From NCBI GenBank assembly GCA_025355465.1, contig JANXZO010000004.1, positions 1 to 62,262 on the forward strand: a DNA stretch of 62,262 nt, written 5' to 3'. This document shows, in pieces, positions 13,337 to 37,212 of the stretch (position 1 is its first letter; every line of letters begins with the position of its first letter). Source of the stretch: Bacteroidales bacterium. GTDB taxonomy: Bacteria > Bacteroidota > Bacteroidia > Bacteroidales > FEN-979. The notes beneath the pieces were generated by a model, which saw only the letters and a list, made by a program, of their open reading frames with translations, searched no databases and had not been told where the DNA came from. A program made the position numbers and the translations under genes.

Positions 13337-13978
13337 CTACTTAAACCGTTCGTCATTCTTTTTTGCGAAGAAGGCGACTTTTTCGAGTGATGTGATCATA
13401 TCGTACTCCTCAAGGTAAACATAAGGGGGCACGTTCAATGGTTTTGGAGTGAAGTTAAGAATCCCTTTGACTCCCGCCAGCACCATGGTTTCGGCTATTT
13501 CCGGCGCCTGTTCTGAAGGAACGGAGATGATCCCGATGGAGATATTGTTTTGCTTAATGATCTCGGAGACCTGATTGATATGATAACATGCCACGCCATC
13601 ATATACCCTGTTGATCTTCTCCGGGTTGATGTCGAATGCAGCGATGATAGCGAGTTTCGAACGTTTTCCTTTGAAGTAGCTGATGATGGCTTTGCCAAGA
13701 TTACCCAGTCCGACAACAGCCACCCGCTGACCTTTCTCTGAGTCAATGATCCGGCCAATAAGATCTATCAGTTCTTTGATATCATAACCCTTACGAAGGT
13801 TTCCCGAATAGCCGATCAGCATCAGGTCGCGTCGTACCTGTACCGGAGTTATATGCAGCATCTGAGCAATCTCATGCGAGAAAACGTGGGTCTTCTCCTT
13901 TGACAGAATCATCAGTAAAGCACGGCGATACTGGCTTAACCGCTCAACGGTCTTGTGTGGAAGGTTTTTTATGAACAT
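13337..13978 (-). CDS. rex: Redox-sensing transcriptional repressor Rex
   Basis: Rex is a homodimeric repressor that leaves DNA when NADH binds, so it reads the NADH/NAD ratio and controls fermentation and hydrogenase genes. The 213-residue protein has the N-terminal winged helix (residues 1-80: RRALLMILSKEKTHVFSHEIAQ, TPVQVRRDLMLIGYSGN, KGYDIKEL). The Rossmann NADH domain has VAVVGLGNLGKAII. The C-terminal domain-swapped helix includes YDMITSLEKVAFFAKK. Its start overlaps the upstream receiver-kinase gene by 10 bases, so it belongs to the first hydrogenase operon. Rex-like operators lie upstream of all three hydrogenase operons. Confidence 0.95.
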   Translation of the reverse strand: MFIKNLPHKTVERLSQYRRALLMILSKEKTHVFSHEIAQMLHITPVQVRRDLMLIGYSGNLRKGYDIKELIDLIGRIIDSEKGQRVAVVGLGNLGKAIISYFKGKRSKLAIIAAFDINPEKINRVYDGVACYHINQVSEIIKQNNISIGIISVPSEQAPEIAETMVLAGVKGILNFTPKPLNVPPYVYLEEYDMITSLEKVAFFAKKNDERFK

Positions 13979-21782: not shown

Positions 21783-21800
21783 CTGTGAAATATTTATCAA
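21783..21800. promoter_or_regulatory. Rex-like operator upstream of the hyd1 operon
   Basis: CTGTGAAATATTTATCAA matches the Rex consensus TTGTGAAATATTTCACAA at 15 of 18 positions. It lies about 30 bases upstream of the hydC1 -7 box and also upstream of the divergent sensor gene. Confidence 0.5.
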
Positions 21801-25020: not shown

Positions 25021-25500
25021 TTAATTGTTGTATTCACTCAAAATATCCTGAACCCCGTCAGGAGAAACTCTGCCATAAACTTTTTCGCCGACCATCACTA
25101 CCGGGGCAAGCCCGCAGGCGCCAACGCAACGGAGACAACTCAGAGAAAATTTTCCGTCCGCTGTCGTTTCACCAACCTGAATTTTCAGCTGCCGTCTGAA
25201 CTCTTCCAGCACCTTCTCGGCACCCCGCACATAGCAGGCTGTTCCAAGGCAAATAGAGATTGGATGCTGCCCTTTCGGGATCATGGTGAAAAACGAATAA
25301 AAGGTCACCACCCCGTAAACATGGGCAACCGATGCATTCAGCTCCTTTGCGATCACCTCCTGAACCTCTGCAGGCAAGTATCCGAAAATGCTCTGCGCCT
25401 TATGGAGAACATTGATCAGTTCGCCTTTTTCGTTGTTAAAGGATTTACAAACGTCCTTTAACTCCTGCAGTTTTTTATCCGATAATTTAATCTTTGCCAT
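25021..25500 (-). CDS. hydC: NAD-linked [FeFe] hydrogenase subunit HydC (NuoE-like), copy 2
   Basis: The 159-residue NuoE-like [2Fe-2S] protein has the helical start ELINVLHKAQSIFGYLP, then VYGVVTFYSFF and cluster ligands CLGTAC and CVGAC. It is the last gene of the second hydrogenase operon (HydB N-terminal protein, HydB, HydA, HydC), the reverse of the order in operon 1. The short gap to hydA2 is filled with CCATTTCR-type repeats. A terminator follows at 24953-24990. Confidence 0.93.
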   Translation of the reverse strand: MAKIKLSDKKLQELKDVCKSFNNEKGELINVLHKAQSIFGYLPAEVQEVIAKELNASVAHVYGVVTFYSFFTMIPKGQHPISICLGTACYVRGAEKVLEEFRRQLKIQVGETTADGKFSLSCLRCVGACGLAPVVMVGEKVYGRVSPDGVQDILSEYNN

Positions 25501-29315: not shown

Positions 29316-29349
29316 ATGTTATTTATTTCACAATGTTAATAAAATCACA
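29316..29349. promoter_or_regulatory. Tandem Rex-like palindromes upstream of the hyd2 promoter
   Basis: ATGTTATTTATTTCACAA (29316-29333) has a perfect right half TTCACAA and an imperfect left half. TGTTAATAAAATCACA (29334-29349) adjoins it. They lie just upstream of the -33 element. Confidence 0.4.
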
Positions 29350-29438
29350 GAAAAAAACTTTTACGTGGTCAGTGAGACCGCTGGAAAGTGATTTTAAATA
29401 TTTATAAATGAGCGTGGTAAGAGAAGGGGATAGTTTCC

Positions 29439-32739: not shown

Positions 32740-34533
32740 TTAGTACCTCTTTCGGGGTGTGTAGTGAGTATGGAGTAGTTCATGGGATTTATGTCCGAGT
32801 GGTTTTTCTAGAAACTCAGTATAGAGTGCAGCTACTTCCGGATTTTCATGAGATTTGCGTATGGACATCCCCATATCTTCAGCATAAATTGCCTCTTTGC
32901 GTTTTGCACGTATTTCGGGATTTGTTGGTATCGGTTGACCTCCTCCACCAAGGCATCCGCCGGGGCAGGCCATGATTTCAATGAAGTGGTAGTTTGCTTT
33001 ACCATCGCGAACATTTTGCATAACCGTTTTGGCATGTGCCAAACCATTGGCTACAACACATTTAAGTTCAACGCCTTCCAGGAAGTTCCAAGCCGGAACG
33101 GTTCTTTCGATGAGTACTGAAGCTTCCCGAACTTCACCTTCCGTTCCCCTTACAGGGGTGATGTTGAGTCCGTCGAAGGGAACCTCGCGACCGGTTACGA
33201 TTTCATAGGCTGTGCGCAGAGCAGCTTCCATAACACCGCCTGTGGATCCGAAAATTACAGCGGCACCTGAAGAAACCCCCATAAAACTGTCGAATTTTTC
33301 CTCGGGCAGGGCTTCAAATTCCAAGCCGGCCTGTTTGATCATAATGCCGAGTTCGCGGGTTGTCAGTACAAAGTCAACATCTTTATATCCACTTGAACGC
33401 ATTTCCGGGCGGTTGGCCTCAAACTTTTTGGCAGTGCAGGGCATGATGGAGACCGACACAATATTTTTCGGATCCAGCTTCCGCTTCTGGGCGTAATAGG
33501 TTTTGGCCAGGGCACCAAACATCTGCTGGGGCGACTTGCAGGTAGAAAGGTTGGGAAGAAATTCCGGGAACGTATGTTCGATGAATTTTATCCAGCCGGG
33601 CGAACAGGAGGTAGCCATGGGCAGCGCAATGGAAGGATCTTTATCAACCAGCGCCTTTTTCAGACGGGTGAGCAATTCATGACCCTCTTCAATAATGGTA
33701 AGGTCGGCCGTGAAATCAGTATCCAGTACGGCATTAAAACCCAGTCGCTTCAGCGCTGCAACCATCCTGCCGGTAACGATCTTCCCGGAAGGCATTCCCA
33801 GTGCTTCTCCAAGTGCGATACGAACAGCAGGTGCAGTTTGTACCACAACATGTTTATTGGGGTCATAAATGGCATCCCAAACCTGGTCGATATAATTGCG
33901 TTCGATGAGGGCGCCGGTCGGACAGCGGTTTACGCATTGGCCGCAGTTGGTGCATACCACCTCTAAAAGAGAATGTTCGAAAAAGGTAGAGATCTTCATT
34001 TTATCTCCCTTGTGCGCTACCCCCAGCGCGCTTACGCTCTGGAGCTCTTCGCAGGTGCGCACACAGCGCTGGCAGCGAATGCAGCGGCTGTCGTCCTTGA
34101 TAATGGCCGAATTGAACATGTCGATCGTGTACTTTTTATCAGGTACCAGGTCGAGAAACATGTGGTCGCCGGTAAGCATCTGGGAAGCCAGGCCCTGAAG
34201 CTCGCAGTTACCGTTTTTGTAGCATTTGGTACAGTCTGCATTGTGCTCAGAAAGCAGCAGCTCAACAATGTGTTTGCGGGCAAGACGTACCTTCATGCTG
34301 TTGGTGTGAATCACCATTCCTTCTGAAACGGGCATGGCGCAGGAAGCAGGGAGGGTTTTCACCTTCTCCTGTTCTACAACACACACCCTGCAATTACCAG
34401 CTACGCATAGGTCTTCATGGTAACACAGAGTCGGGATATGGATATTGAGGCTTCTTGCAGCTTCGAGGATGGTTTTACCTTCGTCAACAGCTACGTTGAT
34501 GCCGTCTATCGTCAGGTTTACTTTATTTGCCAT
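32740..34533 (-). CDS. hydA: NAD-linked [FeFe] hydrogenase catalytic subunit HydA, copy 3 (TSCSP variant)
   Basis: The 597-residue catalytic subunit has [2Fe-2S] ligands (TLCYHEDLC, GNCRVC, ASCA), the His-Cys3 site (HNADCTKCYKNGNC) and two [4Fe-4S] motifs (CIRCQRCVRTC, CTNCGQCVNRCP). The H-domain has L1 TSCSPGW, L2 MPCTAKKFE and L3 IMACPGGCLGGGGQP. The tail is HENPEVAALYTEFLEKPLGHKS plus LLHTHY. In L1 the second Cys, an H-cluster [4Fe-4S] ligand in well-studied enzymes, is Ser. I recall TSCSP as a natural variant class, so this is probably a clade trait rather than damage. It is the last gene of operon 3. Confidence 0.95.
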   Translation of the reverse strand: MANKVNLTIDGINVAVDEGKTILEAARSLNIHIPTLCYHEDLCVAGNCRVCVVEQEKVKTLPASCAMPVSEGMVIHTNSMKVRLARKHIVELLLSEHNADCTKCYKNGNCELQGLASQMLTGDHMFLDLVPDKKYTIDMFNSAIIKDDSRCIRCQRCVRTCEELQSVSALGVAHKGDKMKISTFFEHSLLEVVCTNCGQCVNRCPTGALIERNYIDQVWDAIYDPNKHVVVQTAPAVRIALGEALGMPSGKIVTGRMVAALKRLGFNAVLDTDFTADLTIIEEGHELLTRLKKALVDKDPSIALPMATSCSPGWIKFIEHTFPEFLPNLSTCKSPQQMFGALAKTYYAQKRKLDPKNIVSVSIMPCTAKKFEANRPEMRSSGYKDVDFVLTTRELGIMIKQAGLEFEALPEEKFDSFMGVSSGAAVIFGSTGGVMEAALRTAYEIVTGREVPFDGLNITPVRGTEGEVREASVLIERTVPAWNFLEGVELKCVVANGLAHAKTVMQNVRDGKANYHFIEIMACPGGCLGGGGQPIPTNPEIRAKRKEAIYAEDMGMSIRKSHENPEVAALYTEFLEKPLGHKSHELLHTHYTPRKRY

Positions 34534-34566: not shown

Positions 34567-35733
34567 TTAGTAAATCATCTCTTCCTTGAAGTTGTTCACG
34601 ATGGAGGAGAATGAGTTTGCGACCGACTGGCCAAGTCCGCATTTAGCAGTAATCTTCATGCTTTCGCTTAGTTTCATCAGCTGATCGAGGTAAGCTGCTT
34701 TTTTCTCACCTTTTTTCACGGCAACGATCCCTTTGAGCAACTGCTGGCATCCAACACGGCAGGGAGTACATTGTCCGCAGGACTCCTCCTGAAAAAATTC
34801 GAGGTAATTATGGAGCACGTTGTACATAGATCTCGAACTGTTGAAAATCATCATCGAGCCGCCGGTGGGTACTCCTTCAAACCCGATTACCGTATCCTTG
34901 AATTTTTTGCGGGGGACGCAAAAACCCGAGGCTCCGCCGACCTGTACTGCCTTGGTGTCGCCATCACCGAATTCATCCACGAAACGGTCGAGGGGCATGC
35001 CCAGCTCCAGTTCATAAATTCCCGGGATAGGCGTATCACCTGATACAGAGAAGACTTTTGATCCGCGCGAATCGGTGGTCCCGAGTTTTTTATATTGATC
35101 AGGTCCCAGACGCATGATCATCATGACATTGACGAAGGTCTCCACATTGTTGATCACGGTCGGTTTTTTCATGAAACCACTGGTAGTCGGGTAGGGGGGC
35201 TTGTTGCGTGGCTCACCGCGACCGCCTTCCATCGATTCAAACAAGGCGCTCTCTTCGCCGCATATATAAGCTCCGCTTCCCAGCCTGATTTCGATCGTGA
35301 AATCAAATCCAAGTTTTTTTGCGTGCTCATGGTAGATATCAAGTTCACGGTTCAGGTCATTTAACATGAAGCGGTACTCTCCACGAAGGTACATGTACCC
35401 TTTTTTCGATCCGATTACCTTGCCACAAATAGCCATTCCCGAAAAAACTTTCCTGGGAACACGCAACAGGATTTCCCGATCTTTAAAAGTGCCGGGTTCA
35501 CCTTCATCGGCGTTGCAGATAACATATTTTTCCTCCGAAGTGGTTTCGGCAGTGTATTTCCATTTCATGGCTGTGGGAAAACCTGCTCCACCGCGACCAC
35601 GAAGTCCTGAATCAAGAATGTCTTTCAGGATGGCATCATTGGTACGTGCCAGTGTATCGGCAAGTATTTTGTACTTTACATTCGAATATTCTCCGAAAAT
35701 TAAGTCAACTCTTTTTAGGGATTGATCTGACAT
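34567..35733 (-). CDS. hydB: Hydrogenase flavoprotein subunit HydB, copy 3 (short, NuoF-like core only)
   Basis: The 388-residue NuoF-like protein has the FMN/NADH motifs (LRGRGGAGFPTAMKW, GSGAYICGEESALFESMEG) and the [4Fe-4S] site (ESCGQCTPCRVG, AKCGLGQSV). It has neither the N-terminal thioredoxin-like domain nor the two C-terminal ferredoxin motifs, and no separate gene for them is nearby. It ends soon after the NuoF core, in NFKEEMIY. Loss of the C-terminal clusters argues against ferredoxin-based bifurcation and for simple NADH:H2 exchange. That is an inference from families known to me, not shown here. It lies between hydC3 (24-base gap) and hydA3 (33-base gap). Confidence 0.93.
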   Translation of the reverse strand: MSDQSLKRVDLIFGEYSNVKYKILADTLARTNDAILKDILDSGLRGRGGAGFPTAMKWKYTAETTSEEKYVICNADEGEPGTFKDREILLRVPRKVFSGMAICGKVIGSKKGYMYLRGEYRFMLNDLNRELDIYHEHAKKLGFDFTIEIRLGSGAYICGEESALFESMEGGRGEPRNKPPYPTTSGFMKKPTVINNVETFVNVMMIMRLGPDQYKKLGTTDSRGSKVFSVSGDTPIPGIYELELGMPLDRFVDEFGDGDTKAVQVGGASGFCVPRKKFKDTVIGFEGVPTGGSMMIFNSSRSMYNVLHNYLEFFQEESCGQCTPCRVGCQQLLKGIVAVKKGEKKAAYLDQLMKLSESMKITAKCGLGQSVANSFSSIVNNFKEEMIY

Positions 35734-35757: not shown

Positions 35758-36222
35758 TTACTTAGTAATGTAGTCGCTGATAATGTCGTGTATCTTTTCT
35801 GTCGTTAGTCCGCTGAATGGAATTTCGTTGATGAGCATCGCCGGCCCTTCATGACACCATCCCAGGCAGTTGGTCTCCAGCAAGGTGAACTTTTTGTTAG
35901 GCGTCGTTTCGCCCACCTTTATCTTCAGCATATCCTCCAGCGTCTGAATGATGGTTTTCTTTCCATGCATGTCGCAGGTGATGGTCTTACAAACCCTGAT
36001 CACAAATTTTCCGCGGGGTTCCGTGTCCAGGAACGAATAAAAAGTCGCCGTTCCGAAAACCTGTGCTGCCGAAAGGTCAAGTTCCTTGGCAATGTCGGTC
36101 ATGCAGGTGTCGGAGAGGAAGTTCTGTCTTTCAACCACCCCTTGCAGAATGGGTAGCAAACTGGATCTTTCACGTCCGTATTTGTTCGCTAATTCCTTAA
36201 TCAATTCTGAACATTCAGCCAT
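35758..36222 (-). CDS. hydC: Hydrogenase subunit HydC (NuoE-like), copy 3
   Basis: The 154-residue NuoE-like [2Fe-2S] protein has a helical N-terminus (SLLPILQGVVERQNFL), then VFGTATFYSFLD and ligands CKTITC and CLGWC. It is the first gene of operon 3 (hydC, hydB, hydA), the same order as operon 1. Upstream, a -7 box is bracketed by two strong Rex-like palindromes (36278-36295 and 36323-36340). Confidence 0.93.
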   Translation of the reverse strand: MAECSELIKELANKYGRERSSLLPILQGVVERQNFLSDTCMTDIAKELDLSAAQVFGTATFYSFLDTEPRGKFVIRVCKTITCDMHGKKTIIQTLEDMLKIKVGETTPNKKFTLLETNCLGWCHEGPAMLINEIPFSGLTTEKIHDIISDYITK

Positions 36223-36277
36223 ATAAAATGTTTTAAAAAGTTGAAATATAGTATTTTAATTATAGTCCGTGTTGCTT

Positions 36278-36295
36278 GTGTTAAATAATTAACAG
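36278..36295. promoter_or_regulatory. Rex-like operator 1 of the hyd3 operon
   Basis: GTGTTAAATAATTAACAG matches the anaerobe Rex consensus TTGTTAAnnnnTTAACAA at all but the outermost base on each side. It lies just downstream of the predicted transcription start of hydC3. Confidence 0.65.
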
Positions 36296-36305
36296 AATGC
36301 CGTTA

Positions 36306-36313
36306 CAAAAATA
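36306..36313 (-). promoter_or_regulatory. -7 box of the hyd3 operon (TATTTTTG)
   Basis: It is a match to TAnnTTTG on the minus strand, about 85 bases before hydC3, between the two Rex-like palindromes. Confidence 0.6.
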
Positions 36314-36322
36314 CCATTATTC

Positions 36323-36340
36323 TTGTTATTTAATTAACAG
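36323..36340. promoter_or_regulatory. Rex-like operator 2 of the hyd3 operon
   Basis: TTGTTATTTAATTAACAG matches TTGTTAAnnnnTTAACAA at all but two positions. It covers the expected -33 region of the hydC3 promoter, 45 bases centre to centre from operator 1. Confidence 0.65.
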
Positions 36341-36438: not shown

Positions 36439-37212
36439 ATGCAACAGTACAGGTATTTTATGAAGCTTGCCTATGATGGAACGAACTATCATGGCTGGCA
36501 AAGACAACCCAATGGCTCGTCGGTTCAGCAAACCCTGGAAGAATCGATGCGCCTGATCTGGAAAAGGGATATATCGCTCACGGGTGCAGGTCGCACCGAT
36601 GCCGGAGTTCACGCCGGGGAATACTATGTTCATTTTGATCTTACAGAGGATATTCCACAGACCAGCCTTGATAAATTTGCATTTAATCTGAATAGTTTTC
36701 TTCCGCACGATATTGCAATCCGGTCGATTTTTCCTGTAGCACCTGCACTGCATGCACGGTTCAGCGCAACCTCCCGAACGTATAAATATTACGTTTCAAG
36801 ATTCAAATCTCCTTTTCGCAACCAATACAGCTATTATTTGTTCGGCGACCTGGATGTAGCGCTTATGAATGAGGGTGCCAGGTTGATCATGCAGACGGAA
36901 GATTTCACCTCTTTCTCGAAAGTTGATACAGATACAATCACGAATATTTGCCGGGTTACCCAGGCCCACTGGGAATTTGCCGGAGAGGAGCTTGTATTTA
37001 CAATAACTGCAAACAGGTTCCTGCGAAATATGGTGAGAGCCGTCGTCGGAACACTTTTGAACCTGGGCCGAAATCGAATCGACCTTGATGATCTGTCGCG
37101 TATCATCGAGCGCAAAAACCGTTGTGAGGCCGGTGATTCTGCTCCTGCGCGAGGACTTCACCTTGTGCAAATCGATTATCCTCAGGGAGCCTTTCAATTT
37201 ACGGCGCAATAG
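36439..37212 (+). CDS. truA: tRNA pseudouridine(38-40) synthase
   Basis: TruA converts uridines 38-40 of the anticodon stem to pseudouridine. The 257-residue product opens YFMKLAYDGTNYHGWQRQPNG. It has the catalytic Asp in GAGRTDAGVHA near residue 54, ARFSATSRTYKYYV near 110 and FLRNMVRAVVGTLL near 195. The length is normal. It is a single-gene unit, divergent from the hyd3 operon and convergent with the transketolase genes. Confidence 0.96.
   Translation: MQQYRYFMKLAYDGTNYHGWQRQPNGSSVQQTLEESMRLIWKRDISLTGAGRTDAGVHAGEYYVHFDLTEDIPQTSLDKFAFNLNSFLPHDIAIRSIFPVAPALHARFSATSRTYKYYVSRFKSPFRNQYSYYLFGDLDVALMNEGARLIMQTEDFTSFSKVDTDTITNICRVTQAHWEFAGEELVFTITANRFLRNMVRAVVGTLLNLGRNRIDLDDLSRIIERKNRCEAGDSAPARGLHLVQIDYPQGAFQFTAQ

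Follow-up and report, generated by a model that had tools for sequence, protein, structure and literature searches.

The window analysed here, a stretch of 62,262 nucleotides in full, carries the leftward hydrogenase operon hyd3 together with the hydrogenase operons hyd1 and hyd2. The first gene of hyd3, hydC (36222 to 35758, reverse strand), encodes a NuoE-like protein of the [2Fe-2S] thioredoxin-like type (PF01257, E 1.3e-43) and is followed by hydB (34567..35733, reverse strand), a short form of the NuoF-like subunit without the C-terminal ferredoxin domain that matches PF01512 and PF10589 only, and by hydA (32740..34533, reverse strand), the [FeFe]-hydrogenase catalytic subunit (PF02906, E 2.4e-94). 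A divergent ORF starting at 36439 resembles truA, as judged from its sequence. At a distance from the operon, an ORF at 1813-2673 reads like an insertion-sequence transposase, as judged from its translation.

The promoter of hyd3 contains the box TATTTTTG (36306..36313, reverse strand), which we take to be a -7 box of the Bacteroidota type, TAnnTTTG. It lies between two 18-bp palindromes, both read with hyd3 on the reverse strand and hereafter referred to as the putative Rex operators O1 (upstream, 36323..36340) and O2 (downstream, 36278..36295). In the sense of hyd3 the order is CTGTTAATTAAATAACAA (O1), 9 nt, TATTTTTG, 10 nt and CTGTTAATTATTTAACAC (O2); O1 starts 27 nt before the box and lies over the -33 region, while O2 starts 18 nt past the start of the box, approximately at the start of transcription. 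The two palindromes, their centre-to-centre distance of 45 bp and the box between them had been described in the first-pass annotation and were recovered exactly as described. Its statement that each palindrome matches TTGTTAAnnnnTTAACAA at 16 of 18 positions holds as regards the two mismatches in each, but counts four N as matches; against the 14 specified positions of the Rex-type pattern TTGTTAANNNNTTAACAA, the agreement is 12 of 14 bases. An AT-rich element resembling TATATATTAACAATTTAAAA, common to many relatives, is partly kept in the window just upstream of hydC (36222-36262).

Type of the hyd3 hydrogenase

Four marks of the non-bifurcating, NADH-dependent [FeFe]-hydrogenases are given, in Thermotoga maritima numbering, in section 17 of PMC7311640: T or S at position 232 together with K, S or A at 234 of HydB, absence of the GGPSG motif at 427-431, absence of extra Fe-S domains and Y in place of F at 367. 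The T. maritima residues A232 and M234 and position 427 were located in the chain 7p5h_B. HydB of hyd3 reads GTFK where hyd1 and hyd2 read GAFM, in agreement with the mark at 232 and 234, and carries GGASG where the other two carry GGPSG. It has no extra Fe-S domains, whereas Fer4 domains are present in hyd1 and hyd2, a feature which according to the same section of PMC7311640 is not diagnostic when taken alone. HydB of hyd3 also reads GAY against GAF in hyd1 and hyd2; that F, however, is residue 312 in 7p5h_B, where residue 367 is V. Thus, hyd3 shows three of the four marks published for enzymes that do not bifurcate and use NADH only, and its sequence suggests that it probably makes H2 from NADH alone. 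Such an enzyme would be well suited to control by an NADH sensor. The presence of bifurcating marks together with Rex-type sites at hyd2 indicates that this control would not be limited to hyd3.

The Rex protein encoded in the window

The proposed regulator is encoded by rex (13337..13978, reverse strand), which lies in the same window at a distance of 22 kb from O1 and O2 and is the sole match to PF06971 found in the genome (E 1.8e-13 at 13823-13963; the genome is 98.8% complete). The protein scores above the NCBIfam cut-offs for NF003995 (201 bits vs 126) and NF003996 (184 vs 138), and the Rex chains 5zz5, 2vt2 and 3keo of the PDB align to residues 4-206 of its 213 (best E 7.1e-33). It possesses the winged-helix N-terminal domain and the NAD(H)-binding domain with GxGNLG that are expected of a Rex protein. 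In the segment 13337-17577, rex is preceded by genes for a response regulator-kinase hybrid and for a histidine kinase that carries a [FeFe]-hydrogenase-like domain; a match to the hybrid was obtained in the DNA retrieved around rex at 44 of 56 loci, a count that may include cross-hits to other kinases.

Frequency of the motif in the window and in the genomes

The first-pass annotation held that its reading would fall if the motif were equally frequent at random in the AT-rich intergenic DNA of this genome. At up to three mismatches, 7 matches were found in the window against a mean of 4.16 in shuffled sequences, and 16 of the 100 shuffles reached 7; by motif alone, therefore, there is no excess of palindromes in the window over the shuffles. 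One match, at 25433-25450, was set aside as it falls within hydC of hyd2 (coding sequence 25021-25500). The loose pattern TTGTTANNNNNNTAACAA (up to two mismatches) is likewise not enriched in the genome, with 203 matches forward vs 359 for the reversed control. Loose counts being uninformative, a stricter pattern and conservation were used in their place. The strict pattern TGTKAANNNNNTMACA, which was picked after the sites of the relatives were known, has 13 forward and 14 reverse matches at 21 distinct places in the genome, against 2 and 4 for the control, the same pattern read backwards. In total, the strict pattern is commoner than its control (27 vs 6). In all the 41 genomes of the family that were scanned, this genome included, the forward count of the motif exceeded that of the forward control.

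Conservation upstream of hydC in relatives

Upstream regions of hydC were collected from named genomes, using the best 80 of 91 qualifying loci; the 80 regions comprise 79 loci and the window, the locus L045 being left out as its contig starts at the gene. The loci L097-L126 were left out of the footprinting because their DNA extends only some 1.5 kb upstream of hydA and does not reach the hydC promoter.

In the nearest group of 15 relatives both sites occur at the same places. When these 15 promoters were aligned with that of the window, O1, O2 and TAnnTTTG were found to be kept in 16 of 16 sequences with a mean pairwise identity of 0.67; since the flanks have diverged to this extent while the sites and the box have been kept, the conservation counts in favour of Rex operators. 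O2 of the relatives is mostly TTGTTAATnTTTTCACAA. Their sites mix TTGTTAA and TTCACAA halves, and the downstream site has the TTCACAA half of the Rex consensus TTGTGAANNNNTTCACAA given in PMC6391272.

Across the wider set of the best 80 of 91 loci, at least one TGTKA-N6-TMACA is present in 63 of the 80 regions (shuffle mean 0.275, maximum 2) and none in the remaining 17. A pair spaced by 44-46 bp occurs in 19 of the 80 and in none of 200 shuffles; three of these pairs belong to the distant loci L088, L090 and L092, which are without the TAnnTTTG box. Other layouts in the same 80 regions are a pair spaced by 17 bp (11 regions), a lone site 26-28 nt before the box (18), a lone site 11-15 nt after the box (5) and a lone site with the box in neither position (10). 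In the paired loci the distances between site and box are kept (27-29 before and 16-18 after), and the spacings 44, 45 and 46 all occur. The 45-bp pair was also searched for in genomes of the family, where it was found at 21 places in 18 of 43 genomes, the reversed control being found in one genome; 16 of the 21 places resemble hyd3 promoters by eye. Such conservation of the sites in front of orthologous operons goes far beyond what chance would give.

Association between the motif and Rex in other genomes

Among the genomes bearing the hydC loci (best 80 of 91), a Rex gene was detected in 26 of 30 and in 43 of 50. A site is present upstream of hydC in 57 of 68 genomes with Rex, compared with 5 of 11 without detected Rex (Fisher p 0.010, uncorrected for kinship). 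The contrary cases, namely 11 of the 68 with Rex and without a site and 5 of the 11 without Rex and with a site, are mostly metagenome-assembled genomes by their titles, for which completeness is not given.

The association was also examined in an order-wide sample of 148 genomes, each at least 90% complete, in the form of the log2 ratio of motif to control. Its median is 0.49 in the 67 genomes with the class of Rex present here and -0.64 in the 54 genomes without Rex (p 3.8e-8); it is -0.66 in 22 genomes with a better-scoring class of Rex and 0.79 in 5 genomes with weak matches, the classes having been split by the PF06971 E-value after the data were known. A twofold excess of the motif was observed in 20 of 67, 2 of 54, 2 of 22 and 2 of 5 genomes of these four groups, respectively. 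The difference persists when each family is represented by a single genome and the Rex classes are pooled (67 vs 42, p 1.6e-6). The association between the motif and Rex across the order is a shift, not a rule. The motif is not enriched in the 22 genomes of the order-wide sample that carry the better-scoring class; in these, Rex may recognise a different motif or control few genes.

Interpretation of the paired sites and alternative readings

From the sites, their conservation, the promoter geometry, the presence of Rex and the link between motif and Rex from genome to genome, all of which were computed here, we infer binding, repression, a response to NADH and the direction of the hydrogenase. 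The protein that binds O1 and O2 is very probably Rex. It is highly probable that the two sites serve as operators at which this NADH/NAD+-sensing repressor occludes the hyd3 promoter and that NADH relieves the repression. When NAD+ dominates, Rex dimers would occupy O1, over the -33 region, together with O2, over the transcription start, positions from which either would block RNA polymerase, and the polymerase would be kept off the hyd3 promoter, each operator acting by occlusion. On accumulation of NADH, Rex would leave and hyd3 would be made, its hydrogenase then reoxidising NADH through production of H2. The presence of two operators probably tightens the repression and steepens the response. 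Production of H2 by hyd3 is thus probably switched on as NADH builds up, as far as can be predicted from sequence.

The palindromes could be regarded as chance products of AT-rich intergenic DNA, a reading with which the lack of enrichment of the loose motif in both the window and the genome agrees; the conservation in relatives and the enrichment of the strict motif refute it as far as sequence can, leaving it a practically negligible probability. The sites could also belong to a regulator of the CRP/FNR family. The classic CRP site is TGTGA-N6-TCACA, in which the spacing of the half sites is identical, and the fifth base is G in 33 of the 182 half sites upstream of hydC. However, of the 91 sites there, 59 have T/T at the two variable positions, 31 are mixed and a single one is G/G, and neither O1 nor O2 has G at the variable position of its half sites. 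The rarity of G/G, together with the enrichment of the motif in step with the presence of Rex, which a CRP regulator leaves unexplained, argues against a binder of the CRP type; moreover, the hyd3 sites cover the promoter instead of lying upstream of it. Assignment of the sites to this family is hence considered unlikely.

A somewhat different alternative retains Rex but lets it activate hyd3, or repress at one site and activate at the other. In Caldicellulosiruptor bescii, activation has been proposed for a Rex site located 45 bp ahead of the MBH hydrogenase start (PMC8579813), and deletion of rex in the same species did not raise the Hyd operon, with log2 changes of -0.13 to -0.38, although the authors still propose repression (PMC6391272). 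As that deletion left the Hyd operon slightly lower, repression at hyd3 is not to be assumed by analogy. The location of O1 over the -33 region and of O2 at the start nevertheless speaks against activation, sites that overlap promoter elements or lie downstream of them being taken as repressing in PMC8579813, and we regard an activating role as quite improbable. A further variant, compatible with the Rex reading, is that the 45-bp spacing has been chosen to let a pair of Rex dimers form a DNA loop or bind cooperatively while facing each other. The occurrence of a spacing of 44-46 bp in 19 of the 80 loci (best 80 of 91), including the distant L088, L090 and L092, would fit this variant. On the other hand, 45 bp would correspond to approximately 4.3 helical turns at 10.5 bp per turn, a non-integral number; DNA loops this short are stiff; and the 18 loci with a single upstream site use that site alone, at the same position. 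The quantity that is conserved is the distance of each site to the box, with spacings of 44, 45 and 46 bp all occurring, and since each site is fixed relative to the box, the 45-bp spacing follows and looping is not needed. Looping or face-to-face cooperativity thus has a small probability. As regards the first-pass annotation, its identification of Rex and its bracketing of the promoter are well supported by the Rex gene in the window, the footprint in relatives, the neighbours of the other copies and the link of enrichment to Rex over 148 genomes, whereas its suggestion of looping or dimer-dimer cooperativity found no support here.

Comparison with known systems

Rex sites at hydrogenase operons are already known in Clostridia (PMC5886521, PMC6391272 and PMC8579813), and iron and NiFe hydrogenase operons are among the predicted Rex targets in that class in PMC5886521. 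The same paper gives Rex operators of the adhE gene of Thermoanaerobacterium saccharolyticum with near-identical sequences, such as TTGTTAATAAATTAACAC, two sites being predicted upstream of the one gene. These two are about 120 bp apart by the distances listed there, while the hyd3 sites are 45 bp apart with the box between them, in an organism of a different phylum with another type of promoter. In C. bescii, Rex sites likewise lie upstream of hyd operons, gel-shift tests are reported for them and repression is proposed (PMC6391272 and PMC8579813). The Hyd enzyme of C. bescii is bifurcating and was not raised in the rex deletion, whereas hyd3 carries two predicted operators at a single promoter and resembles an NADH-only enzyme. 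With the non-bifurcating NADH-dependent hydrogenases, as characterised in the literature, hyd3 shares T or S at 232 and K, S or A at 234 of HydB, the absence of GGPSG and fewer Fe-S domains, and differs in its host, a Bacteroidales-type organism.

The paired sites at hyd3 are genuine, and the evidence supports them well as a new example of an already known form of regulation. No Rex regulon of the Bacteroidales-type group was found in the open-access literature searched, though an earlier prediction may exist in a review of Rex (Ravcheev 2012). For the control of H2 production by NADH in a large, mostly uncultured group of anaerobes, the present results supply a motif, the promoter architecture and a list of predicted targets, and they yield the prediction that Rex sites bracket the promoter of whichever hydrogenase is most suitable for disposing of NADH.

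Tandem operators spaced by 17 bp

Upstream of hyd2, two Rex-type operators are arranged in tandem at 17 bp centre to centre (29316..29350, reverse strand); they precede the nearest TAnnTTTG box by about 48-65 nt and do not cover a promoter. The order-wide sample contains 52 such tandems (TGTKA-N6-TMACA-N-TGTKA-N6-TMACA), distributed over 28 of its 148 genomes, the control being absent from all 148. They are present in 27 of the 94 genomes with a Rex match (including G267, in which the match is below the cut-off) vs 1 of the 54 without (one-sided Fisher p 1.2e-5). Neighbouring genes were inspected at one place per genome, that is, 28 of the 52, and comprise 4 glutamate dehydrogenases, 7 hydC-like genes, 8 DRTGG-like genes, 6 first genes of the hyd2 type, 2 cases near pheT and 1 unclear case; these labels come from Pfam for 10 of the 28 loci, with one protein each, and from the first residues for the remainder. 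In the Pfam analysis the second gene was scanned in L212, L214 gave no match and the match in L222 was below the cut-off. The tandems near pheT (L228 and L229) belong to two genomes of one family, and that of L228 (G246) is without a detected rex.

It may be speculated, with considerable reservation, that anaerobic bacteria of the Bacteroidales type possess a Rex network of their own in which the operator layout (single, 45-bp bracketing pair or 17-bp pair) sets the NADH threshold, and that the nearly contiguous 17-bp pairs, which recur in several families at the promoters of hydrogenases and glutamate dehydrogenase, point to a packed dimer-dimer complex. No description of a packed Rex dimer-dimer complex or of paired Rex operators was found in the open-access literature searched, and the recurring 17-bp pair poses a concrete structural question.

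Predicted Rex regulon of the genome

A scan of the genome, of the kind which the first-pass annotation had proposed with a derived matrix in order to see whether fermentation genes score, was carried out with the strict pattern; 15 of the 21 motif places (L127-L147) lie upstream of redox or central-carbon genes and adjoin their operons. These include two places at hyd3, two at hyd2 and one at malic enzyme; two glutamate dehydrogenases (GDH), of which one has a [NiFe]-hydrogenase small-subunit gene as its divergent neighbour; a multihaem cytochrome, VorB (site 341 nt upstream) and sulfide:quinone reductase (SQR); HdrC, NuoA, a CitE-like lyase and a Fer2/pyridine-nucleotide oxidoreductase; and pyruvate:ferredoxin oxidoreductase, whose site (L130) is 51 nt upstream given a later start codon. 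Among the other places, L136 and L145 lie inside ORFs, L137 falls in the last part of an acpS-like gene and precedes an AMP-binding enzyme by 75 nt, and L128, L131 and L147 adjoin genes with no clear link to redox.

At six genes, namely GDH, HdrC, NuoA, the CitE-like lyase, a CoA-binding protein (L131) and pyruvate:ferredoxin oxidoreductase, a TAnnTTTG box begins 8-19 nt ahead of the start of the site, the kind of placement also seen for O2. In contrast, the sites of malic enzyme and SQR precede the nearest TAnnTTTG box by about 90 nt and do not cover a promoter, and no such box was found near the sites of the second GDH, the multihaem cytochrome and VorB. A weak Rex-like match, TTGATAAATATTTCACAG (21783-21800, reverse strand, three mismatches), falls in the gap that separates hyd1 from a divergently oriented [FeFe]-hydrogenase-like gene and precedes a TATTTTTG box by about 47 nt.
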